DNA of 64,000 bases from an uncultured Acidobacteriia bacterium. GTDB taxonomy: Bacteria; Acidobacteriota; Terriglobia; Bryobacterales; Bryobacteraceae. The stretch covers positions 62,001 through 126,000 of the forward strand of contig CAIXXM010000030.1 in assembly GCA_903923395.1 (NCBI GenBank), written 5' to 3'. Below, in pieces: positions 11,454 to 52,533 of the stretch; positions within the stretch are counted from its first letter, which is position 1, and each line of letters starts with the position of its first letter. The notes below the pieces were generated by a model, which had not been told where the DNA came from, made no database searches, and saw nothing but the letters and a program-made list of their open reading frames with translations. Position numbers and translations under genes: made by a program.

Positions 11454-12740
11454 ATGCGTTTCTTTGTTCAAAATTTCGGTTGTCGTGCAACCCAGGCTGA
11501 TGGCGCTGCGCTTGAAGCGCAATTGGCAGCCCGTGGCCTCAGTGAGGCTGGCGAGCGGGCGGAAGCGGAAGTGGTCATCCTCAACACCTGCACCGTCACA
11601 CAGAACGCGGATGATGATGCGCGGCAGACGATCCGCCGCGTTCGGCGGGAGAACCCTGCGGCGAAGATTCTCGTCACCGGCTGTTATGCGCAAAGGGCTC
11701 CCGACGATCTGGCGCGGATGGAAGGCGTGGAATGGGTCGTCGGGAATTCACACAAGACCCAGATTGCCGATCTGGTCTCTGGCGCCATGGAGTATCACGG
11801 ACAAATCCTGACCGGCGATATCTTTGATACCCGCGAAATTCTGACCGCACCGATTTTGGATTCCACGTCAGACCGGACGCGTCCCAATCTCAAGATCCAG
11901 GATGGCTGCCACAACCGCTGCTCCTTCTGCGTAATTCCTTATGTGCGGGGGAAGAGCCGCTTCGTACCCGCGGACGACGTTGTAGAGCAGGTGCGCAGTC
12001 TGGCCACGCGCTACAAGGAGGTCGTGCTCAGCGGGATCAATCTGGGGCGCTGGGGCAGGGAAGCGGGCGTTGGCATGCGGCTCGCGGATCTCATCCGCCG
12101 CCTGTTACAGGAGACCGATATCCAGCGGATCCGCCTCAGTTCCGTGGAGCCGATGGATTTCACTGATGACCTGCTCGGTCTGATGGCCGAATCGCCCCGC
12201 ATCGCCAAGCACGTCCATGCGCCATTGCAATCGGGATCCGATACGATCCTGCGGAAAATGCATCGCAAATACCGGCCTCGCCATTATGCCGACCGGTTGA
12301 GCAAGGCGCGTTCCTGGATGCCGGATGCCGCCATAGGCGCTGATGTGATGACTGGCTTTCCTGGTGAGACCGATGAGTTATTCGAGGAATCGAGAGCCTT
12401 CATCGCCGCCATGCCATTCACGTATCTGCATGTCTTCACTTACTCGGAACGGCCGGGTACGCCAGCCACGGAGATGGAGGGTAAAGTTCCCATGCATGTC
12501 CGCAAGGCGCGCAACAAGGTACTGCGGGAACTTGCGGATGAGAAGAATTTCGCCTTCCGCCAATCTTTTTCGGGCAGGGAATTGACCGCAGTCACCATGG
12601 ATCCCCCGGGAACGGCGCTGACCGATAACTTCCTGAAGGTAAACCTGGATATGCCCTATATGCCGAACCGGCTGGTGCATTTACGCATCCAGGGGCCGGA
12701 TGGCAGCGTTCTGCGGGGCACAGTCGCGGGCGAAATTTAA
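11454..12740 (+). CDS. mtaB: tRNA (t6A37) methylthiotransferase, radical SAM
   Basis: This enzyme adds a methylthio group to N6-threonylcarbamoyladenosine at position 37 of tRNAs reading ANN codons. The N-terminal UPF0004 domain carries the second cluster cysteines C10, C46 and C77. The radical-SAM cluster motif is CHNRCSFC (C152, C156, C159). The C-terminus shows a TRAM-like region. The motif pattern QNFGCRATQADG and GCHNRCSFCVIPYVRGKSRF fits MtaB/YqeV better than MiaB. The ATG at 11454 has AAGG 9 bases upstream; an in-frame TTG at 11445 is less likely. The t6A synthesis genes tsaB and tsaD, which make its substrate, also lie in this window. It ends convergent with the LssY_C gene, overlapping by 4 bases. 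Confidence 0.92.
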   Translation: MRFFVQNFGCRATQADGAALEAQLAARGLSEAGERAEAEVVILNTCTVTQNADDDARQTIRRVRRENPAAKILVTGCYAQRAPDDLARMEGVEWVVGNSHKTQIADLVSGAMEYHGQILTGDIFDTREILTAPILDSTSDRTRPNLKIQDGCHNRCSFCVIPYVRGKSRFVPADDVVEQVRSLATRYKEVVLSGINLGRWGREAGVGMRLADLIRRLLQETDIQRIRLSSVEPMDFTDDLLGLMAESPRIAKHVHAPLQSGSDTILRKMHRKYRPRHYADRLSKARSWMPDAAIGADVMTGFPGETDELFEESRAFIAAMPFTYLHVFTYSERPGTPATEMEGKVPMHVRKARNKVLRELADEKNFAFRQSFSGRELTAVTMDPPGTALTDNFLKVNLDMPYMPNRLVHLRIQGPDGSVLRGTVAGEI

Positions 12741-14155
12741 GCCGGGGGTGCTTTTCGCAGCGCTGCCCGCGTCCACTTGGTGACGCGGTACATCCAGAAT
12801 ACTGAGTTCTCACGTTCCACGTATTGGCGGCTTTCGAGGATGATCCGCCGCGCAATTGCCGCCAGCCGTGCCGTCCTGCCTACCGGGGTGGAAAAGGTCA
12901 GGCCTCGCCGTGTCGCCTCGCACGAGTGCAGTTCCAAGTAGGCGAGTCGTTTATCCGTCATGATGCCCGGGGCTTTGATATCAGGGCGCGCGACATACCC
13001 GGTTCCCGTGGAACAACCGGAATAGGCGATATCATCCACCACTTTCTGCCGCTCTTCATCGATGGCCCGGTCAATCCGGTGCGTAAACTTCACCTTGCGC
13101 AGGTCCGCGCCAACGCCAATGTCGTGTGTCGCCGCGCCAACCCAGACCGTGTGGCCATTCACATCCTCTTTCCAGACGCGGATGTGATGGCGGTACATCA
13201 CGTTATTGAGGGATTTCTCAAAGACGAAATCCGGTTCACGATTGCGGTAAAGCAGCAGAGAAGCAGGCGCACGGGCATAGCCACGCTTCTGCGTGAAGGC
13301 CTGGTATTCCTCGGCCACCGAATGTTTCGTAATGTCTTCGGCAGTGCTCCAGCCCGCGGTCAGGAAGGCGTTTTGCACCTGTTCCGCTGTGCCATCGAAG
13401 GCAACGTTGATGATGTCTTTCACCGGTGCGCCTTCAGGCTTCGTGACCTCGACTGGCAAGGCGGTTAGAGCGGATGCGATGCGCTCTGGAACCTGGATTT
13501 CCTCCGGCAACTCATAGAGCGGCACATCAGTCGGGAGATTGACCAGGCGCAGTTGCAATTCCGTGCCGGCGGGCAGGCGTATCTCCGGGTCCGGCAGTCG
13601 GAACAACGCGCAACGCAAGCCGAACAGACCAATCGCGCCAATCGGGCCGGGCGCGTAACTTCGCCAGGCTTTTTCACTGGCACCGGTAAGACCTATTGTC
13701 GCCCGCTGGAACAGGGAGCGGCTGGGAACAGTCCAAACACCGTTCAAGACCTGCTGCGGACTATCCGCCGCGAGAATACCGCGGATCTTTCCATCCTTGG
13801 TGACTGATTCGCGGGCATTATCCACCTTTTCCACCCTCGCGATAATTGGGTAGACGCGGTGGTTCGGCAACTCATATTCGTGAAATTCCAGCCACACTGA
13901 GGCGCGTTCATGAACGATCCCGAGTCCAGTGGCATGGCGGTTCATCACGGTGCCATGGAGAACCGTGCCCGCGGGCAGCAGAACGCCATCTCCGAATCGA
14001 ACTGGGGCGATGACCTCAGCTTGAATATCCAGGCCCGGAACGGAGGCCACCGAGGACACCTGTGTCGTCAAACGTACCTGTGCGACAGGTGTTTGCCCGT
14101 GGGTTGTTGCGGCGAAACAGAGGAGTGTCAAAATCCAGTGCAGTCGTCGTATCAA
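12737..14155 (-). CDS. Secreted protein with LssY C-terminal domain
   Basis: This is a 472-residue protein with an N-terminal signal peptide (hydrophobic WILTLLCFAATTHG). The N-terminal half has a beta-rich segment resembling conjugal TrbI/VirB10-like wall domains (LLPAGTVLHGTV, LRLVNLPTDVPLYELP). The C-terminal half (about 225-430) matches the LssY_C domain: VQNAFLTAGWSTAED, HHIRVWKEDVNGHTVWVGAATHDIG and HRIDRAIDEERQKVVDDI are typical. LssY_C occurs attached to PAP2 phosphatases in Legionella LssY and alone in many Acidobacteria; its biochemical role is not known. No PAP2 domain is present here. The two genes on either side (mtaB convergent, kbl-like beyond a 46-base gap) give no functional clue. 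Confidence 0.75.
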   Translation of the reverse strand: MIRRLHWILTLLCFAATTHGQTPVAQVRLTTQVSSVASVPGLDIQAEVIAPVRFGDGVLLPAGTVLHGTVMNRHATGLGIVHERASVWLEFHEYELPNHRVYPIIARVEKVDNARESVTKDGKIRGILAADSPQQVLNGVWTVPSRSLFQRATIGLTGASEKAWRSYAPGPIGAIGLFGLRCALFRLPDPEIRLPAGTELQLRLVNLPTDVPLYELPEEIQVPERIASALTALPVEVTKPEGAPVKDIINVAFDGTAEQVQNAFLTAGWSTAEDITKHSVAEEYQAFTQKRGYARAPASLLLYRNREPDFVFEKSLNNVMYRHHIRVWKEDVNGHTVWVGAATHDIGVGADLRKVKFTHRIDRAIDEERQKVVDDIAYSGCSTGTGYVARPDIKAPGIMTDKRLAYLELHSCEATRRGLTFSTPVGRTARLAAIARRIILESRQYVERENSVFWMYRVTKWTRAALRKAPPA

Positions 14156-14201
14156 GGCCTATAGTACGCCGGAAATTACAGGAATGTTTCGATTTCGAGT
14201 A

Positions 14202-15386
14202 TTAAAGAATGGACATTCTTTTGGCAACGGTGCGGAATACGTCCAAAGCACGGTCCAACTGGGCTCTGGTGTGGGTCGAAGAGACGATGGTGCGCACGCG
14301 CGCTTTGTCTTTCGCGACAGTGGGGAAGCCGATACCCGTGGCCAGCACGCCAGCTTCAAACAGTTCGCGTGAGAAGCGATGCGCGAGCGCGGTGTCTCCG
14401 ACAATCACGGGATTGATGGGGGTCTCACTGATGCCTGTATCAAACCCGGCATCCACCAGGCCGGCCTTGAAGTACCGTGCGTTCACCCACAGCTGTTCAA
14501 TGCGTTCAGGCTCTTCTTCCAGAATGTCGAAGGCAGCCAGGCACGACGCTGCAACTGAGGGCGGGTGCGACGTGGAGAACAGAAACGGCCGGGCCCGCTG
14601 GTAAAGATATTCGATGAGGTCCTTTGAACCGCAGACATAACCACCCAGAACGCCAATCGACTTCGAGAGCGTGCCGACCTGAATATCGACGCGTCCATGC
14701 AGATCAAAGTGGTCGATCGTGCCGCGGCCATTGCGGCCCAGAACGCCGGACGAATGGGCGTCATCGACCATCATGATGGCGCCATACTTCTCGGCCAGTT
14801 CCACCAGCGCCGGCAGGTTGCCGATATCGCCATCCATGGAGAAAACGCCGTCTGTGATGAGCAATTTTCTGCCTGGAACTCCTTCGAGCGCCGCCAGTTT
14901 TTCCTCCGCCACCTTCATGTCGCTGTGGGGAAAGACATGGATTTTGGCGCGCGACAGCCGGCAGCCATCGATGATGCTGGCGTGATTGAGCGCATCTGAA
15001 ATCACGTGGTCTTCCGGAGTCAGAACGGAGGAAACCGTGCCCGCATTTGCCGTGAAGCCCGATTGGAAGACAACGCAAGCTTCCACATTCTTGAACTTCG
15101 CAATGCGCTCCTCCAGTTGCATATGCAAATCCATGGTGCCGCAGATGGTGCGGACGGCACCGGAGCCCGCGCCATATTTGCGGGTGGCCTCGAGGGCGGC
15201 TTCAATGAGTTTTGGATGTGTGGTGAGTCCCAGGTAATTGTTTGAGGCGAGGTTGATGACCTCATGGCCGTCATAACGGGATTCGGCGGCGCTGGGGCCT
15301 TGCAGGATGCGGAGATTGTTGTAGGTTCCGGCCTGCTTCCATTCAGCGACCTGGCTGCCAAGGTAATCGAGCGGGTTTGCGCGCAT
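14202..15386 (-). CDS. kbl: Glycine C-acetyltransferase / 2-amino-3-ketobutyrate CoA ligase-type alpha-oxoamine synthase
   Basis: This is a 394-residue PLP-dependent alpha-oxoamine synthase. Family members condense an acyl-CoA with an amino acid: Kbl cleaves 2-amino-3-ketobutyrate to glycine and acetyl-CoA in threonine breakdown, and BioF makes the biotin precursor. The PLP lysine is K242 in GTLSKSIG, and DDAHSSG is at 208-214. The stretch GTMDLHMQLEERIAKFKNVEA is closer to the Kbl/Thermus-type bifunctional group than to dedicated BioF. No threonine dehydrogenase or biotin gene is adjacent. Instead it follows the NfrB-like glycosyltransferase gene with a 3-base gap, so the two are probably one transcript. 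The choice between Kbl and BioF activity is an inference. Confidence 0.85.
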   Translation of the reverse strand: MRANPLDYLGSQVAEWKQAGTYNNLRILQGPSAAESRYDGHEVINLASNNYLGLTTHPKLIEAALEATRKYGAGSGAVRTICGTMDLHMQLEERIAKFKNVEACVVFQSGFTANAGTVSSVLTPEDHVISDALNHASIIDGCRLSRAKIHVFPHSDMKVAEEKLAALEGVPGRKLLITDGVFSMDGDIGNLPALVELAEKYGAIMMVDDAHSSGVLGRNGRGTIDHFDLHGRVDIQVGTLSKSIGVLGGYVCGSKDLIEYLYQRARPFLFSTSHPPSVAASCLAAFDILEEEPERIEQLWVNARYFKAGLVDAGFDTGISETPINPVIVGDTALAHRFSRELFEAGVLATGIGFPTVAKDKARVRTIVSSTHTRAQLDRALDVFRTVAKRMSIL

Positions 15387-15389
15387 ACT

Positions 15390-17162
15390 TCAAAGATACC
15401 GTTCCTGCAGTTCTTGAAAGTCGGCCGGCTTCAGGAGTTGGAATCGGATTTCGAATCGGGTGAACCGGCGAAGGTCAGACTCCATGGCGGGCGATGGCGG
15501 GTCCGGTCCGGCAATGTAGAGTTCGCCACCGGCGATCCGAAAGGGCAACACCTGCCACTTCTTCACGATCGTCATTGGCAGGGAACGCGTGACGGGCGGA
15601 GATACGGTTTCCTCGTCCGGCCTGCCGCAGGGCAACCCGGATTGCAGACTTAATGCCGCGTAGAGATCGTCTTCATTCATCCAGCCGCGTGCGATGAGAT
15701 ACTCACCAAGTTTCTGTGTTGCGGGCTTCCGCGCCAGCGCCTCTGCCAACTGCTCTTTGGTGATCCACTGCGACCCGGTCAGCACTTCGCCGAGTGGTTT
15801 GCGTTCGGTCACCAGGGCACTGCGGCTCGGATAGTTATGCTCTGTCTTGACCCATCGCAATGGTCTGCCGGTGATCTTACAAATGGTGTAGGTCTGCACC
15901 GCCTTCCAGGTGGCGAAGAAGTTGATCCAGTTGCCCGCTATCACGCGGACCGGCACGAAGCAGGCAAACTGCAACCCATAGATCCGGTTGCTGCACCAAC
16001 AACGGATACCCACATGAAAGACCTGCAAACCGAGCCCCGCAGCGCAGGCTTGCCAAGTGTTCGCGGCCACTGACGCCAGCCCCCAGGCTTGATGCATCGC
16101 TTGTGCCCAGAGCCAGGTGAGGAACCCGTAGACGAAGATCACATTGGTGAGCGGTGTGACCAGGTTGCCGATCACGCCTTTGCGGTCGCGCCAGAACCAG
16201 TAGGCCCAACGCAGCGTCTCATGGAAGCCGTGAAACTCCCACGATTGCAGGGTGATGCCCGTGACCCAGCGGCTGCGCTGCCTCACCGCCGAATGAAAAT
16301 CCCGCGGGAAAAATTCGCGTGTGGCGATGGGCCGCCCGTGCCGGATCATGATGGGAATGAATTTTTGCGGCATCCCCATGCGCCGGATGCGGAAACCGTT
16401 TTCATAATCCTCAGTCAAACAGATGGGTTCGAAGATCCTGTTATTATGTGCAGCCGCAAGAGCTTCCAGGGCCTTGCGGGAGAAGCCGGTGCCCACGCCG
16501 TTCGACGGAATGAAACCGCCCATCCACTGCCGTGCGTGCATGTCTTTGAACTGGAATTCCGCGAACTCATCGCAGTAGACGCCGTGCGATATTTCCTTCA
16601 CCGGCGTAGGCAGTGCCAGCACCGGAATCTGCACCATTTCGTTCCACTGCGCGTAGTAATTGATCCAGCGCAGTGCGTCGGGGTCCATCAGATCTTCGGC
16701 ATCATGCGTCAGGACCATGTCAAACCGGATGCCGTGGTCCTGCTCAAACAACAGCATGCGCTGGAAGATCCAGTTGAGGTTATCGGCCTTGGAGGTCGGT
16801 CCGTCATGCGGCAGGATGGCGTAGTGAACGTTCGGATATTTTGATGAGGCTTCTTTGACGGCGGAGACGGTGGGTCCGTCATTGGGATAAACGCCGATGA
16901 AGAACTCGACATTGTCATAACGCACCTGGGTAACGTTGTTTTCGATCATCTTCTGGATGACCCTGTGTTCTTTCCACAGGGCGACGAAGATGGCCATTTG
17001 CCGTTGGGGAACCGCGTCCAGGTCTGCCTCGGAGGGCAGCGTGAGCTTCCAGTAGCTGCACGCTGCGGCAATGTCGATGACAAAGTCGTCCAAGCCGTTG
17101 AGAAGAATCCAAACGGCGAGAGGGATGAGCAATGCAGCGACGATGTGGTCCGCGGTTACCAC
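15390..17162 (-). CDS. NfrB-like membrane glycosyltransferase (GT2) with C-terminal MshEN domain
   Basis: This is a 590-residue inner-membrane protein. A hydrophobic N-terminus (AALLIPLAVWILLNGLDDF) precedes a processive GT2 catalytic domain with THDAEDLMDP (DxD-like), CLTEDYENG and the QRSRW product-site motif. Transmembrane helices follow around residues 330-440. The last 160 residues hold two MshEN-type repeats, PLGEVL...WITKEQLAEAL and KLGEYLIARGWMNEDDLYAALSLQ, a known c-di-GMP-binding module. E. coli NfrB has the same layout and is a c-di-GMP-activated glycosyltransferase for an N4-receptor exopolysaccharide. A c-di-GMP-controlled polysaccharide synthase is therefore the best inference. 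No NfrA-like outer-membrane partner is nearby. It is co-transcribed with the kbl-like gene. Confidence 0.85.
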   Translation of the reverse strand: MVTADHIVAALLIPLAVWILLNGLDDFVIDIAAACSYWKLTLPSEADLDAVPQRQMAIFVALWKEHRVIQKMIENNVTQVRYDNVEFFIGVYPNDGPTVSAVKEASSKYPNVHYAILPHDGPTSKADNLNWIFQRMLLFEQDHGIRFDMVLTHDAEDLMDPDALRWINYYAQWNEMVQIPVLALPTPVKEISHGVYCDEFAEFQFKDMHARQWMGGFIPSNGVGTGFSRKALEALAAAHNNRIFEPICLTEDYENGFRIRRMGMPQKFIPIMIRHGRPIATREFFPRDFHSAVRQRSRWVTGITLQSWEFHGFHETLRWAYWFWRDRKGVIGNLVTPLTNVIFVYGFLTWLWAQAMHQAWGLASVAANTWQACAAGLGLQVFHVGIRCWCSNRIYGLQFACFVPVRVIAGNWINFFATWKAVQTYTICKITGRPLRWVKTEHNYPSRSALVTERKPLGEVLTGSQWITKEQLAEALARKPATQKLGEYLIARGWMNEDDLYAALSLQSGLPCGRPDEETVSPPVTRSLPMTIVKKWQVLPFRIAGGELYIAGPDPPSPAMESDLRRFTRFEIRFQLLKPADFQELQERYL

Positions 17163-17295
17163 GTCCGGGCGCGATTCTCCAATCTAGTAAGTGGGGCGGG
17201 GCGGGGAAGTTCTCAGGAAAATATTTACAGGGGAAGAGAGTTGCGCGGGGTGTGCTATCTTCCCCCACATGTCTGATATCGGTTTGCCTGGGGCG

Positions 17296-18333
17296 ATGAA
17301 ACGTCCGCGCTTCATCACCGGCCTGATTCTGCTGCTGGTGCCTGACCTGTTGTTGCAGGCGCAGCAACCCTCCGCGCGTCCACTGTATTTCCTCACGAAG
17401 GATGAGCAGTGGTGCCTCTATGACAACGAACGCAAATGGGCGGACGAGCAGGAAGCGGGGGCGCTGGTAGGCAAAATTGAGTACAACGGGAATCGAATAG
17501 CCCGTGTTTACGTGACAACGCCCGACGATCCCGGTGCCGGGGATTGGGCCGCCTTCGATCTCTATACTCTGGATGCCAAGGGGAACTTCCGTTCGCTCAA
17601 CCGTACGATCAATGTACTTCCGGGCAATCTCAGCCGGCTCGAAAACTGGAAAATCACCAATGGCAAGGCGCTGCGGGGTAAGGTGGTCAACCTCGACCTG
17701 GACACGCACAAACCGAAGCAGGAGCCGGAAGATTGGGTTCCGGAACTGGAGGTTTTGCAGAGTCCGAAAGAACTTCCCATTTGGCCGCTGGCACAAAATG
17801 CTGCCCGCTCTTTGGCGGGTACCGGAAAGGCCTGTGTCAGTGTTCCAACACCTCTGCCTGCGCCCCCGCCGCCCCCAACGCCAGTAAAGTCCTGGTCGAC
17901 TTACGTAGACGAAAGGTTTGGTTGGTCAGTGGAGTATCCGTCGACATGGAAGGTTCACAACAGTTGCCCTGCAGGGTGTCAGGCACCTGGTGACGCCGTG
18001 TCGTTTTCGAACCCCGTGAGTGGAAACTGGGTGATCGTATCCAGCATGACGGACCCTCTGCGGGGAAGGAATATCACCGAACGGCTCTCGGCTCTCCGCC
18101 ACACGAATCAGAATCCTATCGTCAAAGAGGCCCCAGTCAAAATCGGACAATTGCAAGCCCTGACAGTGAGGTATGCGAATCAAGAATTACAAATGGAGTC
18201 TACATACCTGGTGACGGAGAGCGCGTACTTCAAGGTCTCGGTGAGTTCGTCCAACTGGCCCATCGAGCAGTTACCGGATTATCCAGCGTATCGCCACCTG
18301 CTCGAAAGCTTCAAAATTGCCGGGGCGCACTAA
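17296..18333 (+). CDS. Secreted protein of unknown function with PsbP-like C-terminal domain
   Basis: This product of about 345 residues was not recognised as a named family. The likely start is the ATG at 17296, preceded by GGGG, because it opens a signal peptide (RPRFITGLILLLVPDLLLQAQ). Upstream in-frame starts would add a poor leader. Residues about 25-175 are a beta-rich domain with repeated W/Y residues. A proline-rich linker (PTPLPAPPPPPTP) follows. The last 130 residues (YVDERFGWSVEYPSTWKV... to AYFKVSVSS...YRHLLESFKI) have the signature of PsbP-like or lipoprotein-type domains widespread in extracytoplasmic proteins. It is divergent from the NfrB-like gene and stands alone. A periplasmic location is likely; the function is unknown. 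Confidence 0.7.
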   Translation: MKRPRFITGLILLLVPDLLLQAQQPSARPLYFLTKDEQWCLYDNERKWADEQEAGALVGKIEYNGNRIARVYVTTPDDPGAGDWAAFDLYTLDAKGNFRSLNRTINVLPGNLSRLENWKITNGKALRGKVVNLDLDTHKPKQEPEDWVPELEVLQSPKELPIWPLAQNAARSLAGTGKACVSVPTPLPAPPPPPTPVKSWSTYVDERFGWSVEYPSTWKVHNSCPAGCQAPGDAVSFSNPVSGNWVIVSSMTDPLRGRNITERLSALRHTNQNPIVKEAPVKIGQLQALTVRYANQELQMESTYLVTESAYFKVSVSSSNWPIEQLPDYPAYRHLLESFKIAGAH

Positions 18334-29610: not shown

Positions 29611-32600
29611 CTATTTGTTAGTGAGAGCGGCGAGCTTGCCTTCGGCGTTCTTGATAGGCAGCGGGATAGTTGAGGAGGGCTTCCTCCCTGCAAGTGCAAA
29701 GGCTTCCCAACTCGCATCGAGACTTTTGTGAAGCAGCGATTCCAACTCACTTCCGTGCTTCGAGCGCGCCTCGTGGAGTAGGGCAGTGCCGAGTTCGGCA
29801 AGTGATATGACGAGCGAATCCCTTACATCGTCGCCACCGTGGTCGGCTATCGGTCGTAGAAGCTCGACTGACTTCGCAGCCTCCAATGTTGCTTCTTGAT
29901 ACAAACCATATGAGATGAGAGTCCGCGCACGGAAGCAGAAACTGCGGGCATATGCCGTTTGGACCTCCTGCGCAGTCACGCCAGGCACGACCGAAGTGAA
30001 GTCTGCGTGCTCTCCCTGCATAATCTTCAGCAGTCGGACGATACGATCAAACGCGTTACGCTCCTGTGGAGGGACTATCCTGAGCCGGGATGGCTCAGCA
30101 AGCAGAAGTTTTTGATAATGAAGAGCCTGCGGAAAATCTCCCAATTGTTCCGCGATAAAACTGAGCTGCGTGTAGTTGGAGCGGAGGGATGGTTCACCAC
30201 CAATCAAATCCATGCTTTGCCGGAGCGCCCGGTTTGACTCCGACGCCCGGCCGGTTAAGCGCAAGGCAGTCGCCAGTAGTAAATAATCTTCCGCTTCGGC
30301 ACGTTTCCTGGCGGGAGTCTGTTGGAGCTTACTATTCAAATCGAGCAGATCTTGGCGATGCCCGACACTCGAATTAAAATCCCCAATGTCCAGTTCCAAG
30401 TCCGCCTCGAGACGGAGCAGTTGCATGAATAAGGAAGGTGTCGTGTCACTCATCGTCATTGCAAACCTCACCAAACGTAGGGCTTCGTGAGGTTCTTCCA
30501 GCGCCCGAAACGCATTCGCGGTGACAATAACATCGAAATCCAGGTTCGCTCTCCGTGTCGAAGGGTAACCTGCTTCTATGAATTGCTCCAACGCTTCCCG
30601 ATTCCGGGATAATGCTTCTTCCCGGGCCTGCATCCCCGACCGCCGCACAAGCGAATATCTTGCGAGGGTGTTCTGGCGCCTGATCATAGCTGGCACATTT
30701 TTTCGGATTGAGGTTACCAGAATTTGGTCTTTAGGAGAAGCAAGATTACTGTCTGCAGGATGCAGGTATCGGTCGAATGCTACTTCAACCGCCGTCATCT
30801 TGTCATCACCAGTTCCCGGCCCCTGTGTAATCAAAGTGATTTCTTTCTCCAGCGCCGAGTAACACCATGTCGCATAAGGCTTTCTTAGAGGGTAGGCCTT
30901 CACCAGTTTTCGGAGGATGGACTGACCTTCATGTATTTCCTGAAGCCGATTAGGATTGGAAGTGCCCCCGGCCGCCGATATAAAAAGATGGGTTTTGGCG
31001 ACCTCCAAAACAAAGTCGGGGTCGTTGGCATGCAAGGCAGCAATTTGCTCATGGATCTGCACGGATCTCTTCGTTAGCGATTCTGCTTCGAACTGCTTCC
31101 CTGTGATGAAGAGTTCCGCAGCCAGAAACAACTGGAGTTCGCTCAGATCTAACTGCACGCTTGTATTGAAGGGATCCGCTGAAGCGAGTTCCTCCATGAT
31201 TGCGTTGGAGCTACGATAGAACTTTTCGATGGCTGGCCTCTTGGCCCGTCTGCCAAGCACCATATGCGCAATGGCGCGCTCCCGCTGGTAGAGAATATTC
31301 GTTGGGTCATCGCGGTGCAGTTCATCCAATGATGCCAAGGCCTGCTTGGTGATCTGAACGACATCGTCAAACCCTCGTTGCACGCCCGCAAGCCCCCATT
31401 CCACCTGGGATCTGGCAAGCTCCCACCGCGCATTTATCGAAGCCGGATTGGCATTCAGGATCTCCGTCCGGAGCGCAACCGCACGTTGAGGGTTGGCCAT
31501 TGAGGCGCAATTCAGGAATAAACCGCAATTGAAGCGGTCCATCAGTACTTCCGCCAAGTCCGCCTTGGCCTGCAGGTTGGTTGGTTCGTCCTTGACAAAC
31601 TGCTCCGCCATCGCTCGGACTTTTGAGAAGTCGAATTGCTGTTCATTCAGGACTTTCTCGGTCTGACCATACCGTAAGGCAGCGATGATCAACTTGTGCC
31701 TCAATTCCGAGTTACGTGGATCCTTCGCTAACTGGGCTTCGAGCAGCCTCTTACTGCGCTCAAAACTATCGTGGGCCAGTTTCATTTCCCGCAGGTTTGA
31801 ACCGCGTGGGTCACCAGCCAACTCACCCATTCGAAGATAAGCTGTCGCGAATTGCCTTTGCAATTCGGGACTTTCATGGACCTTCCCCCGCCTCTCATAG
31901 ACTTTATTTAGGTATTCAATGCCGAGTTTGGACATTGTCTCCCGGGCCCTGGTGGCACCAGACAGATTGCGGATCTGGTCATTGAGATCTCCGAACATGG
32001 CGTTGGCGAGAGACTGGACATCCCCGAGACTGGCTTCAGCGAGTTGAGCTTGCTCCCGCGCGGCAAGTTCCTGACGGGTGGCCAGGGCCGCCTGCTCTTC
32101 TGCGCGAACTCTTTCAAGGGCGGCTTCGCGGCTCTGTTCTTCCGCGCGGCGGCTTTGTGCTTCTGCACGGGCACGAAATTCCACGGCTATGTTGCGTTCG
32201 CGGTTGGCCACGGCGGCCTGAGTCACGGCGACGGCTGTTCCTAAGACCAGTGCGAGGATGACCGCGACACCCGCCGCGACCGGTAGCCGGTGGCGGCGGA
32301 TGAACTTGCTGGCTCGGTAGACCGTGCTGGGTGGAGAAGCGAGAACAGCTTCGTTGTTCAGATGTCGGTGGATGTCGGCGCCTAAGTCGGAGACCGACGA
32401 GTAGCGGCGATGGCTTTGTTTTTCCACCGCGCGGGTGACGATCCAGTTCAGATCGCCGGCGAGTTTGCGGCGAAGTTCGGGGAGGGTTGTGGCGCGGCGG
32501 GCGGCGATGTCCGTAGCAGTATTGCCGAGAGAACTGAGCTTGGCCTGCATCGGCGGATTCTCCACATCCCGCACGATGCGGAGCAGTTCGGCTAGTCCGG

Positions 32601-33414
32601 CTTTGCGGAGAGTCGGACCATCGAAGGGAACGGCACCGACGAGCAGTTCGTAGAGCAGAATGCCGAGCGAGTAAACGTCAGAACTGGTATCAACGACGCC
32701 GGTCATGACATCGGCCTGTTCGGGGGACATGTACTCCGGGGTGCCGATGAATTGGCCGAGTTCGGTGAAGGCGGTACCGTCGAGATCGCGTTGGTCGGTG
32801 GCTTTGGCGATGCCGAAGTCGATGACTTTGGGAACCGCTTCGCCATCGATTTCGGTAACCATCACGTTCGAAGGCTTAATATCGCGGTGGATGATGCCTT
32901 TGCCGTGCGCATGCTGGACGGCGCTGCATACCTTTACGAAGAGTTCCAGCCGCTGTTCGGTGTTGAGGCGTTTGTCGTCACAGTATTTGGTGATGGCGAC
33001 ACCATCGACGAATTCCATCACGAAGAACGGGCGGCCATTGGTGGTGATATCGGCATCGTAGACGCGGGCGATGTTTGGGTGATCCATCATCGCGACGGCC
33101 TGGCGCTCGTGGTTGAAGCGGGAAAGCACCTGCTTGGAATCCATGCCGGGCTTGACGACCTTCAAGGCGACTTTGCGCTGGATGGGACGGGTCTGTTCCG
33201 CGAGGTAGACGGTGCCCATGCCACCCTCACCGAGGGTGCTCAGAATGCGGTAACGGCCAAAGAGGTCGGCTTCGGAGGTAGCGGCGCGTTGGCCTGAATC
33301 GGGAGTAAACGTCGGGAGTTCGGTACCCGCTCCGCCGAGGAAGAGGCAAGCAGCACAAAGCCCGGCAGGGTCACCGGGAGCAAGCGGGTTGCGGCATTCG
33401 GGACAGAGTTCCAC
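29611..33414 (-). CDS. Giant membrane-anchored Ser/Thr protein kinase with TPR-like C-terminal region
   Basis: This is a 1267-residue Hanks-type kinase. Residues 4-23 form a zinc-ribbon-like C-x-x-C...C-x-x-C motif (CPEC, CAAC). The kinase domain spans about 54-350, with glycine loop GEGGMG (62-67), lysine K85, catalytic D178 in HRDIKPSN and DFG at 199-201; all key residues are present, so it should be active. One membrane helix lies near 375-400. A coiled coil rich in A, E, Q and R follows, and then about 750 residues of helical TPR-like repeats. The start is GTG (33412-33414). It follows the ECF sigma gene by 43 bases, an arrangement typical of Acidobacteria and Planctomycetes, where the kinase is thought to control the sigma factor. 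The signal is unknown. Confidence 0.92.
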   Translation of the reverse strand: MELCPECRNPLAPGDPAGLCAACLFLGGAGTELPTFTPDSGQRAATSEADLFGRYRILSTLGEGGMGTVYLAEQTRPIQRKVALKVVKPGMDSKQVLSRFNHERQAVAMMDHPNIARVYDADITTNGRPFFVMEFVDGVAITKYCDDKRLNTEQRLELFVKVCSAVQHAHGKGIIHRDIKPSNVMVTEIDGEAVPKVIDFGIAKATDQRDLDGTAFTELGQFIGTPEYMSPEQADVMTGVVDTSSDVYSLGILLYELLVGAVPFDGPTLRKAGLAELLRIVRDVENPPMQAKLSSLGNTATDIAARRATTLPELRRKLAGDLNWIVTRAVEKQSHRRYSSVSDLGADIHRHLNNEAVLASPPSTVYRASKFIRRHRLPVAAGVAVILALVLGTAVAVTQAAVANRERNIAVEFRARAEAQSRRAEEQSREAALERVRAEEQAALATRQELAAREQAQLAEASLGDVQSLANAMFGDLNDQIRNLSGATRARETMSKLGIEYLNKVYERRGKVHESPELQRQFATAYLRMGELAGDPRGSNLREMKLAHDSFERSKRLLEAQLAKDPRNSELRHKLIIAALRYGQTEKVLNEQQFDFSKVRAMAEQFVKDEPTNLQAKADLAEVLMDRFNCGLFLNCASMANPQRAVALRTEILNANPASINARWELARSQVEWGLAGVQRGFDDVVQITKQALASLDELHRDDPTNILYQRERAIAHMVLGRRAKRPAIEKFYRSSNAIMEELASADPFNTSVQLDLSELQLFLAAELFITGKQFEAESLTKRSVQIHEQIAALHANDPDFVLEVAKTHLFISAAGGTSNPNRLQEIHEGQSILRKLVKAYPLRKPYATWCYSALEKEITLITQGPGTGDDKMTAVEVAFDRYLHPADSNLASPKDQILVTSIRKNVPAMIRRQNTLARYSLVRRSGMQAREEALSRNREALEQFIEAGYPSTRRANLDFDVIVTANAFRALEEPHEALRLVRFAMTMSDTTPSLFMQLLRLEADLELDIGDFNSSVGHRQDLLDLNSKLQQTPARKRAEAEDYLLLATALRLTGRASESNRALRQSMDLIGGEPSLRSNYTQLSFIAEQLGDFPQALHYQKLLLAEPSRLRIVPPQERNAFDRIVRLLKIMQGEHADFTSVVPGVTAQEVQTAYARSFCFRARTLISYGLYQEATLEAAKSVELLRPIADHGGDDVRDSLVISLAELGTALLHEARSKHGSELESLLHKSLDASWEAFALAGRKPSSTIPLPIKNAEGKLAALTNK

Positions 33415-49692: not shown

Positions 49693-52533
49693 TCAGCTTC
49701 GGAGGAACCGGCCGGTGTGTGTATCGGCTTTTGCCACTTGCTCAGGCGTTCCCTGCGCCACCACTTTGCCGCCACCGCCGCCGACTTCAGGCCCCATGTC
49801 GATGACCCAGTCCGCGGCACGGATCACATCCAGATTGTGCTCGATGATGAGTAATGAACCGCCATTATCAATCAAACGCTCGAAAGCTGTCAGCAGTTTG
49901 GTGATGTCATCGAAGTGCAGTCCGGTGGTCGGCTCATCGCAGATGAACAGAGTGCCGTCATTTGTCGATTGTGCCAGGTAAGCCGCCAGCTTGACCCGCT
50001 GCGCTTCCCCGCCCGAAAGCGTCGTTGCTGACTGCCCCAGCCGCAGATAGCCCAGCCCCACTTCATCGAGTAACTTCAACTTGGTGACCAGCCGCCCGGT
50101 GTCATGGAAGAAACCAATCGCCTCCCGGACGGTAAGTTGCAGGACCTCATTGATATTTAAGCCCTTGTACTTAATCTCCAGGATCCCCGACTTATATCTC
50201 GTCCCTTTACACTCATCACAGACCAGTTCCACATCGGCGAGAAACTGCATCTCTACGGTGACTGTGCCATCACCCTGGCAGACCTCGCAGCGTCCGCCGG
50301 GTACGTTGAATGAGAAATGGCCCGCGGAATAACCGCGCTTCTCAGCCATGGGCACGGCAGCAAATAAACCGCGAATCACGTCAAACGCTTTGATGTAAGT
50401 GACCGGGTTGGAGCGCGGCGTACGCCCAATCGGCGTCTGGTCGATCATGATCACTTCCCGGATCTTATCCGCACCTTCCAGCCTGGTGCAGGTCATCCGG
50501 GGAGTATCATTGACTCCACCCGTTTCCTCATCCTCAGTTTCTTTTTGCTCTGCCTGGATCAACTTCGATTGCAGGGATTTCCAGATCACCTCATGCACAA
50601 GGGAGGATTTGCCAGAGCCAGAGACTCCGGTGATCACGCACATCAGCCCCAGCGGAACGGTAACATCAATGCCCTTGATGTTATGAATCCGCGCCCCGAA
50701 AACCTGCAGGACATTCTTCTTATCCACTTTCCGGCGGTGTTTCCGGTGACTTACCTGGGCATCTCCACGGAGATATTTAGAAGTAAGTGAAGCGCCACCA
50801 TCGGACAGCAACTTTGCGTAATCCCCTTCGAAAACCACGCTGCCGCCGCTCTCCCCCGCACCCGGCCCGAGATCGAGGATATGATCGGCAGCCTTCATGA
50901 CGTCCGGATCATGCTCGACCACCAGGATGGTATTTCCGAGATCGCGCAGTTCGTGCAGGATGTTGATCAGCCGTTCGGTATCGCGGGAATGGAGTCCAAT
51001 GGAGGGCTCATCGAGAACATAGAGCGCACCCACCAGACGGGAACCAAGACACGTCGCGAGTTGGATGCGCTGTGCTTCGCCGCCGGAGAGCGTCGCGGAT
51101 AAACGGTCCAGAGTCAGATATTCCAGGCCGACATCATAGAGGAACTTCAAGCGCTGCTGGATTTCCACCAGCACTTTGCCGGCGATGCCCTGCTCTTCCG
51201 GGGTGAGCACCAAACCGTCGAAAAAGTCTCTGGCCTCGCTGATGTTCGCGCGCGTGGCTTCCGTGATGGTCTTGCCGCCCACCTTCACATACAACGCTTC
51301 CTTGCGCAAACGCGCCCCGAGGCACTGCGGACACTTCGCATAGCCGCGATACCGGCTCAGAAACACGCGCACATGCAGCTTGTATTTCTTCGTGTCCAGA
51401 AAGTTAAAAAACTGGCGGACCCCGTCGACTTTCTTATCACCCTCCAGCACCAGTTCCTGTTCGGCTTCGGTCAGGTCGGCGAAGGGGACATTCAGGCGGA
51501 CACGTCCCGCGGCCTGCCGGCGGAAATCCAGATACCATTCCCTGCCCTTTGGCTTGGTCCAGGGCTCTACGGCACCTTCTTCGAGAGACAAGCCACGGTT
51601 GGGGATAATCAAATCCGTGGAGTAATCGATGGTGTTGCCGAAACCCTGACATCGGGAACAGGCCCCGGCCGGTGAGTTGAAGCTGAAGAGCACCGGCTCG
51701 GGTGTGCGGAACTCCAGCATGTCGTACTTGCAGAGAAACCGCTCGCTGAACAGTAATTGCGTCCCGGCTTTGGGACCGGAAGCGTACTCAAAGATCGCGT
51801 CGCCCGCCTCGCGGTAGCAGGATTCCGTGGAGTCCACAATCCGCTGGCGTCCATCGCGGCTGATGGCAATACGATCCACCAGGGAGTACACGGGCTTCGA
51901 CCAATCGAGATCAATCAGTGATTCGGGTGTGGAGAACTCAAACGTCTTGTCGCCCTGCCGCAGACGGTTGAAGCCGCGGGCGCGCAACTCCATCAGGCGT
52001 TCTTTGGGAACATGCCCTGCCTCATGAGCAACAGGAAACAGGATATAGAAGCGGGTCCCGTCGGCTTCCTGCAGCAGTTCATGCGCTACATGATCGACGG
52101 TGTCTTTCCGGATCTGCCTCCCGCACTTCGGGCAAAACGTCCGGCCGGCGCGCGCCCACAAGAGGCGCATATAGTCGTAAATCTCAGTGGTGGTGGCCAC
52201 CGTGGAGCGGGAATTGCGCGTGGTATTTTTCTGCCGGATGGCGATGGCCGGGGCAATGCCCTCAATGTCGTCCACCGCGGGCTTTTCCATCCGCTCCAGG
52301 AATTGCCTCGCGTAAGCGGACAGCGATTCCACATAGCGCCGCTGCCCTTCGGCATAGATGGTGTCAAAGGCAAGAGAAGACTTGCCTGAGCCAGAAACAC
52401 CCGTGACCACAGTCAGGCAATTGTGCGGAATCGCAACCGTCAAATTCTTGAGGTTGTGAAGACGCGCACCCTTTACCAGGATGGCCGATACTTCGTCAGT
52501 TTTTTGGGAGGGATTCAACGCAGCGCCGATCAC
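49693..52533 (-). CDS. uvrA: Excinuclease ABC subunit A
   Basis: This is a 946-residue DNA-damage recognition ATPase of nucleotide excision repair. Two ABC modules are present: Walker A sequences TGVSGSGKSSLAFDT and TGVSGSGKSSLVHEV, two LSGGEAQR signatures, and Walker B regions YVLDEPSIGLH and ICDEPTTGLH. Zinc modules CPKCGRQ, CSRCQGFG...CPQCLGARL and CEVCQGDG...CDECKGTRY are intact, as is DQTPIGRTPRSNP. The start is a GTG at 52531-52533 without a clear ribosome site. No uvrB or uvrC is nearby. The upstream hairpin isolates it from the tsaB transcript. Confidence 0.97.
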   Translation of the reverse strand: MIGAALNPSQKTDEVSAILVKGARLHNLKNLTVAIPHNCLTVVTGVSGSGKSSLAFDTIYAEGQRRYVESLSAYARQFLERMEKPAVDDIEGIAPAIAIRQKNTTRNSRSTVATTTEIYDYMRLLWARAGRTFCPKCGRQIRKDTVDHVAHELLQEADGTRFYILFPVAHEAGHVPKERLMELRARGFNRLRQGDKTFEFSTPESLIDLDWSKPVYSLVDRIAISRDGRQRIVDSTESCYREAGDAIFEYASGPKAGTQLLFSERFLCKYDMLEFRTPEPVLFSFNSPAGACSRCQGFGNTIDYSTDLIIPNRGLSLEEGAVEPWTKPKGREWYLDFRRQAAGRVRLNVPFADLTEAEQELVLEGDKKVDGVRQFFNFLDTKKYKLHVRVFLSRYRGYAKCPQCLGARLRKEALYVKVGGKTITEATRANISEARDFFDGLVLTPEEQGIAGKVLVEIQQRLKFLYDVGLEYLTLDRLSATLSGGEAQRIQLATCLGSRLVGALYVLDEPSIGLHSRDTERLINILHELRDLGNTILVVEHDPDVMKAADHILDLGPGAGESGGSVVFEGDYAKLLSDGGASLTSKYLRGDAQVSHRKHRRKVDKKNVLQVFGARIHNIKGIDVTVPLGLMCVITGVSGSGKSSLVHEVIWKSLQSKLIQAEQKETEDEETGGVNDTPRMTCTRLEGADKIREVIMIDQTPIGRTPRSNPVTYIKAFDVIRGLFAAVPMAEKRGYSAGHFSFNVPGGRCEVCQGDGTVTVEMQFLADVELVCDECKGTRYKSGILEIKYKGLNINEVLQLTVREAIGFFHDTGRLVTKLKLLDEVGLGYLRLGQSATTLSGGEAQRVKLAAYLAQSTNDGTLFICDEPTTGLHFDDITKLLTAFERLIDNGGSLLIIEHNLDVIRAADWVIDMGPEVGGGGGKVVAQGTPEQVAKADTHTGRFLRS

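Follow-up and report, generated by a model that had tools for sequence, protein, structure and literature searches.

An NfrB-type glycosyltransferase without NfrA and an adjacent alpha-oxoamine synthase in the order Bryobacterales: probably neighbours rather than partners

We analysed a 64,000-nucleotide stretch of contig CAIXXM010000030.1 (positions 62,001 to 126,000; assembly GCA_903923395.1) from an uncultured bacterium of the order Bryobacterales, hereafter the window, in which an open reading frame (ORF) for an NfrB-like glycosyltransferase (the synthase) is followed on the minus strand, after a gap of 3 nt, by an ORF for an alpha-oxoamine synthase (AOS). With a probability of about 0.8, we consider the two proteins to be neighbours without being partners. 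The synthase would be an orphan, a member of an order-wide stand-alone lineage without NfrA, and the AOS, the only one of its genome, would act as a glycine C-acetyltransferase (KBL) that converts 2-amino-3-ketobutyrate into glycine and acetyl-CoA, the 2-amino-3-ketobutyrate being supplied by a threonine dehydrogenase (TDH) encoded on another contig. The two genes were probably joined a single time, no later than the base of the genus, and later lineages would have lost the AOS and kept the synthase. The original prediction for this locus was largely right in its observation, and its positions, strand and 3-base gap all agree with the ORF coordinates; one count, the number of MshEN domains, was wrong. 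The two genes are as follows.

15390..17162, minus strand: NfrB-type glycosyltransferase family 2 (GT2) synthase, 590 aa, GTG start; matches PF13641, passes NF011305 and is 32% identical to E. coli K-12 NfrB (594 columns)
14202..15386, minus strand: AOS, 394 aa; TIGR01825 subfamily, most likely with the function of KBL (glycine C-acetyltransferase)

Among the synthase matches listed, which give places for 150 of the 223 genomes with a match, the synthase and the AOS lie within 5 kb of each other in six of the 75 genomes in which both were placed, and all six belong to the genus of the window; in the other 69 genomes, the two genes are unlinked. Some synthases end at a contig edge (e.g., in G041), where linkage would be invisible. 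Within the genus, 13 of 19 members have the synthase without an AOS orthologue, and all six genomes that carry this AOS have it directly behind the synthase. Direct reading found the AOS in four of 40 synthase regions, and the window and a contig of G019 (L034) bring the linked set to six; no synthase was present in the 20 AOS regions read directly. A scan of genome contigs returned five loci, of which three hold the pair and are not independent of G019, G007 and G020, and two are cut at contig ends (L038 and L036, the latter being NZ_CAJCHS010000329.1 with a 57% identical synthase). In family f1, 12 of the 19 genomes that lack the synthase have an AOS orthologue, as do 111 of the 218 that carry the synthase. 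The six linked genes form one clade in the AOS tree (92/93), and in the synthase tree the six linked synthases are scattered among unlinked ones, a pattern that takes three changes; most simply, the pair was joined once and losses followed.

The surroundings of the pair are not conserved. In the five linked relatives, the gap between the two genes is about 7, 34, 58-67, 49-70 and 45-117 nt, the ranges reflecting alternative start codons. When positions 5000-27000 of the window were compared with four linked flanks, only the pair recurred, along with an ABC ATPase at 26-28% identity; because no other flanking gene recurs, the pair has outlasted its surroundings. A conserved third gene, searched for among six genes on each side with families linked at E<1e-15, was not found: no family occurs in more than eight of 41 synthase loci or six of 23 AOS loci. 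This clustering of neighbour families missed the tdh gene beside the AOS described below, which tblastn found. The pairing is not a conserved system, and the neighbourhood, which is peculiar to one genus, probably means little.

The AOS passes TIGR01825 (539.5 bits, cut-off 535.4) and the glycine C-acetyltransferase model NF005394 (498.1 bits, cut-off 460), and, of 10 candidates scored in its own genome, it alone matches at E<=1e-5. Serine palmitoyltransferase was rejected because all three cut-offs were missed, those of NF047600 (396.6 of 640 bits), NF047599 (328.8 of 500) and NF047603 (247.9 of 670). The nearest solved structure is that of Thermus ThAOS (7poa), at 422 bits over residues 13-393. 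All 26 AOS orthologues compared retain the pyridoxal phosphate (PLP) lysine, the Asp, the His, the carboxylate Arg and Val78, and from the family we take K242 to be the PLP lysine.

14661..14663, minus strand: PLP lysine K242 (TLSK); K in 26/26 orthologues
15153..15155, minus strand: V78, equivalent of ThAOS Val79; V in 26/26 orthologues

For the functional assignment, we divided AOS matches into orthologues (68% identity or more), paralogues and distant forms by our own cuts on identity and E-value. An AOS orthologue occurs in 124 of the 257 genomes of the order, and TDH at E<=1e-100 occurs in 189. TDH is present in 117 of the 124 genomes with an AOS orthologue, in 60 of the 70 with a paralogue (41-46% identical to the window AOS) and in 12 of the 63 with neither. 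No other AOS was found at E<=1e-50 in 74 of the 124 orthologue-bearing genomes, and 71 of these 74 have TDH. In the window genus, TDH and either type of AOS agree in 17 of 19 genomes, and the genome of the window itself has a TDH over the cut-off (485.9 bits, cut-off 458.35).

Moreover, in 10 of the 35 AOS loci that were read beyond the linked ones, all in other genera, the AOS is immediately preceded by a TDH gene in the same orientation. This adjacency occurs in two of 20 loci taken one per genus irrespective of TDH (G213, G151) and in eight of 15 loci chosen because their TDH scored low or under the TIGR00692 cut-off (G053, G113, G164, G167, G201, G205, G208, G215); it was not seen in G104, G133 (where the AOS lies at the contig start), G150, G181, G212, G226 and G098. 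The aligned ends of the two genes are about 10-40 nt apart in eight loci and 266-369 nt apart in two. The upstream TDH (L088, L095, L133, L135, L138, L139, L141, L142, L143, L145) is of a second type, 41-46% identical to the TDH of the window's genome, and two TDH proteins from AOS loci pass the L-threonine 3-dehydrogenase model NF003808 (421.5 and 423 bits, cut-off 380). Places were available for all 124 orthologues and for the best 24 paralogues only, none of these 24 genomes holding an orthologue; among the matches listed, 14 of the 19 genomes with both have the paralogue no more than 5 kb from TDH. Of five paralogues scanned, three TDH-linked ones and one unlinked one pass TIGR01822, and the fifth leans to bioF, under the cut-off. 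In G018 (L113:2012-4952), a classical KBL has a second AOS in tandem behind it, which leans to bioF but scores under its cut-off; the stretch fetched there holds no TDH match.

Because the AOS passes NF005394, because it co-occurs with TDH and because its orthologues stand directly behind tdh, we consider it most likely to be a glycine C-acetyltransferase (KBL) in threonine breakdown. Compared with the classical TDH-KBL pair, in which a TIGR01822 protein is encoded beside tdh, the window AOS would have the same role but fails TIGR01822 and lies away from tdh, whereas its orthologues share the classical position in the ten loci above. We therefore file the window AOS under TIGR01825, although it probably works as KBL.

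In a profile scan, the synthase matches PF13641 (9.9e-36) and PF13632, and it passes the NCBIfam model NF011305 (495.7 bits, cut-off 409). However, it misses the NfrB equivalog NF008411 (392.7 bits versus a cut-off of 1170); therefore, we call it NfrB-like and do not file it as NfrB proper. The DxD (HDAED), TED and QxxRW motifs are invariant in all 41 sequences of an alignment that comprises the window synthase and 40 relatives from the better matches, among which forms without MshEN are under-represented.

16692..16706, minus strand: HDAED (DxD motif), residues 153-157; H, D, E and D in 41/41, A in 40/41
16407..16415, minus strand: TED motif, residues 250-252; 41/41
16266..16280, minus strand: QRSRW (QxxRW motif), residues 295-299; Q, R and W in 41/41

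The GT2 models, these motifs and the identity to E. coli NfrB bear out the earlier view of an NfrB-like glycosyltransferase with both GT2 catalytic motifs. The likeness to the NfrB of the E. coli NfrBA-YbcH system extends to the order of parts, a GT2 domain with DxD, TED and QxxRW and a C-terminal MshEN, although E. coli NfrB has 745 aa and the window synthase 590 aa. We infer a membrane topology for the synthase; an AlphaFold model from five sequences was of low confidence (mean predicted local distance difference test score 49.4, predicted template modelling score 0.35). WecB is encoded in the same genome (451.7 bits, cut-off 210.15), and therefore UDP-ManNAc could be the sugar used by the synthase.

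A synthase is present at E<=1e-40 in 223 of the 257 genomes of the order, and in a sample of the class it was matched in 101 of 399 genomes, two of these outside the order. According to excerpts of PMC8669469 and PMC8669472 (mBio 2021), NfrB is a glycosyltransferase activated by cyclic di-GMP (c-di-GMP) that works with NfrA. The E. coli system has NfrA, whereas the genome of the window holds no NfrA_C in a search with E. coli as the positive control, in agreement with the missing NfrA partner that had been predicted. Across the order, NfrA_C occurs in four of 257 genomes (three over the cut-off) and gave no match in 253. In three genomes (G154, contig C2; G153, C42; G037, C99), a second synthase lies about 3.6 kb from NfrA_C (L125, L126, L127), the NfrA_C itself lying in open frames of 1127-1325 aa. 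The NfrA-linked synthases align with E. coli NfrB at 34-38% identity (E 1e-118 to 1e-132), reaching residue 626-710, and the window's protein at 31-33% (E 1e-88 to 1e-98); the same three genomes also keep an orphan-type synthase elsewhere. Because the NfrA-linked synthase is separate and more NfrB-like, the orphan seems to form its own lineage, and the search for NfrA evidently works in this order. NfrB without NfrA has already been noted in Eggerthella in the excerpts of PMC8669469, and the absence of NfrA is therefore not new in itself. A literature search for NfrB in Acidobacteriota or Bryobacter, with most subscription journals outside its coverage, found no paper.

The original prediction described two MshEN repeats. 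Two repeats do exist, as two 24-residue half-motifs in the N-part of the domain (both parts score over their cut-offs), but they belong to a single C-terminal MshEN domain; two MshEN domains were considered and rejected, since one domain holds both motifs, in line with the definition in excerpts of PMC5013675, in which an MshEN domain has two 24-residue motifs.

15642..15797, minus strand: MshEN N-part, two 24-residue c-di-GMP half-motifs, residues 456-507; NF053729, 47.3 bits, cut-off 38
15396..15638, minus strand: MshEN C-part (PF05157 stretch), residues 509-589; 46.5 bits, cut-off 23.1

These matches support, at the level of sequence, the earlier reading as a c-di-GMP-type synthase. Compared with the published consensus, motif I shows three main replacements, P in place of the first R, Q in place of the inner G and K in place of the last Q; two of its core positions are T and W. 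In motif II the contact residues are retained (the L, the G, the inner G, both late L and the Q), except that K replaces R, and two core positions are W and M; the LG is kept in both motifs. In our alignment, motif I of E. coli NfrB deviates at the same three main places (P, Q and R). Excerpts of PMC8669469 give a Kd of about 1 uM for the binding of c-di-GMP by NfrB, and excerpts of the PilF paper (PMC11731258) widen the first motif position to R, K or L and describe a c-di-GMP-binding PilF domain with P at the first position of one motif. We consider it likely that the window MshEN domain binds c-di-GMP. Several lineages are without this domain. Eight relatives were chosen for their short alignments, and the absence of MshEN was judged from tail length and letters: six have only 460-499 residues from the first aligned residue to their end, which leaves no room for MshEN (L117-L121 and L124, in G063, G143, G225, G003, G152 and G108), and in the other two (L122 and L123, in G146 and G076) the segment with the c-di-GMP motifs is deleted and the C-part kept. 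For 12 of the 99 genomes of the order matched in the class sample, the alignment reaches no further than residue 460. The orphan synthases without MshEN are apparently natural forms that are blind to c-di-GMP. Two more MshEN proteins, with open frames of 559 and 554 aa, are encoded elsewhere in the genome of the window (contigs C67 and C100; L001, L002).

Certain observations weigh against our reading of the locus as an orphan synthase beside an unrelated KBL. The AOS fails the stricter KBL equivalog TIGR01822 (404.3 bits versus a cut-off of 493) and is just under the bioF cut-off of TIGR00858 (424.2 versus 426.45 bits). The TDH rule is broken in the genus by G010, which has the AOS without TDH, and by G011, which has TDH without either type of AOS, and order-wide by 7 and 12 genomes. 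In the window's own genome, the AOS and TDH lie on different contigs, and an AOS orthologue is near TDH in none of 91 genomes among the TDH matches listed, which cover the best 150 of 189 genomes and only the higher-scoring type over the TIGR00692 cut-off. The counts across genomes ignore relatedness, as do the Fisher values for the co-occurrence with TDH, and the genomes are not independent. The persistence of the pair in changing surroundings may reflect selection for linkage, or few breakpoints in a short interval. In addition, motif I of the MshEN domain is degenerate in its letters.

One alternative is that the pair forms one pathway, in which an aminoketone or acyl amino acid made by the AOS enters or decorates a glycan controlled by c-di-GMP. 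The 3-nt gap and the position of all six genus AOS genes directly behind the synthase in unconserved surroundings are consistent with it, but most genus members have the synthase without the AOS, most genomes with both leave them unlinked, and the presence of the AOS does not track the synthase in f1 but tracks TDH, with orthologues behind tdh elsewhere. We consider a single pathway very improbable, and a glycan-modifying AOS was rejected on its distribution. The coupling that had been proposed, through an amino-acid-derived or acylated glycan, is therefore not supported, and chance operon membership, which had been named as the alternative, is the better reading, although this strain is not the only one with the linkage. 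Among the 75 genomes in which both genes were placed, the survey across the order found the linked pair in six and no conserved system. It is at least as improbable that the AOS is the BioF of biotin synthesis. The score close to the TIGR00858 cut-off, which the G010 orthologue passes at 433.5, fits BioF, but no BioB over the cut-off was found in the genome of the window (three weaker radical-SAM-type matches were), and BioB occurs in 39 of the 257 genomes and in only eight of the 124 with an AOS orthologue. Because there is no BioB, BioF is unlikely, and of the earlier label, a Kbl/BioF-type PLP enzyme, the part that stands is an AOS, most likely KBL, that passes TIGR01825 and NF005394. ThAOS of Thermus thermophilus is itself described as a KBL/BioF-type AOS in excerpts of PMC11906848; the window AOS keeps the equivalent of its Val79, but its genome lacks BioB.

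The AOS might also be a broad C-acyltransferase of the ThAOS type, with a main product other than 2-amino-3-ketobutyrate, such as an aminoketone or a sphingoid-like lipid precursor. ThAOS is the nearest structure, and according to the excerpts of PMC11906848 the wild-type enzyme from Thermus was active on Gly, Ala, Ser and L-Aba with acyl-CoAs of C2-C8; the failure of TIGR01822 and the distance from TDH in the own genome would also fit. Against it stand the scores below the serine palmitoyltransferase cut-offs, the co-occurrence with TDH and the ten loci behind tdh. The valine at the Val79 site, called conserved in KBL enzymes in the same source, points the same way, although it does not discriminate in our sample, in which the bioF-leaning paralogue also has Val. 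We regard a broad enzyme as unlikely. Somewhat less unlikely, although still doubtful, is that c-di-GMP has lost its control over the synthase, whose MshEN domain would be a relic. The degenerate motif I and the eight short-aligning relatives that lack the domain or its motif part would agree with a relic; however, E. coli NfrB has the same three deviations and yet binds c-di-GMP, NF053729 is over its cut-off, and the LG of both motifs is kept.

With regard to the neighbouring genes, an LssY_C-domain gene (12737-14155) lies 46 nt downstream of the AOS on the same strand and may be a third gene transcribed with them; the clustering put it in no family with the flanks fetched from relatives. We infer that the synthase and the AOS are co-transcribed; a promoter and terminator scan of positions 12500-17700 gave fewer sites than in shuffled sequences (1 versus 1.9; 3 versus 5.5). 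Farther away, the window encodes a protein of 1267 aa that has a Ser/Thr protein kinase domain at its N-terminus and matches TPR weakly (29611-33414) and a 946-aa UvrA-type protein with UvrA interaction and DNA-binding domains (49693-52533).

The pair itself is ordinary; the lineage of orphan synthases offers a modest lead. The pair shows that a very short gap can join genes with otherwise independent histories, and the AOS yields an assignment to threonine breakdown, most likely as KBL, for a member of the TIGR01825 subfamily. Of the two, the synthase is the more important. At even odds, in our estimation, nearly all of this order of soil Acidobacteriota would hold a stand-alone, c-di-GMP-gated NfrB-type synthase that never had, or has lost, the NfrA outer-membrane pore and any operon, whose product would stay in the envelope or exit otherwise, and whose sensor would have been shed in several lineages, uncoupling the enzyme from the signal. 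An NfrB-like synthase is kept in most genomes of the order, set against NfrA_C in four, and its natural forms without MshEN allow a comparison with those that carry the domain.

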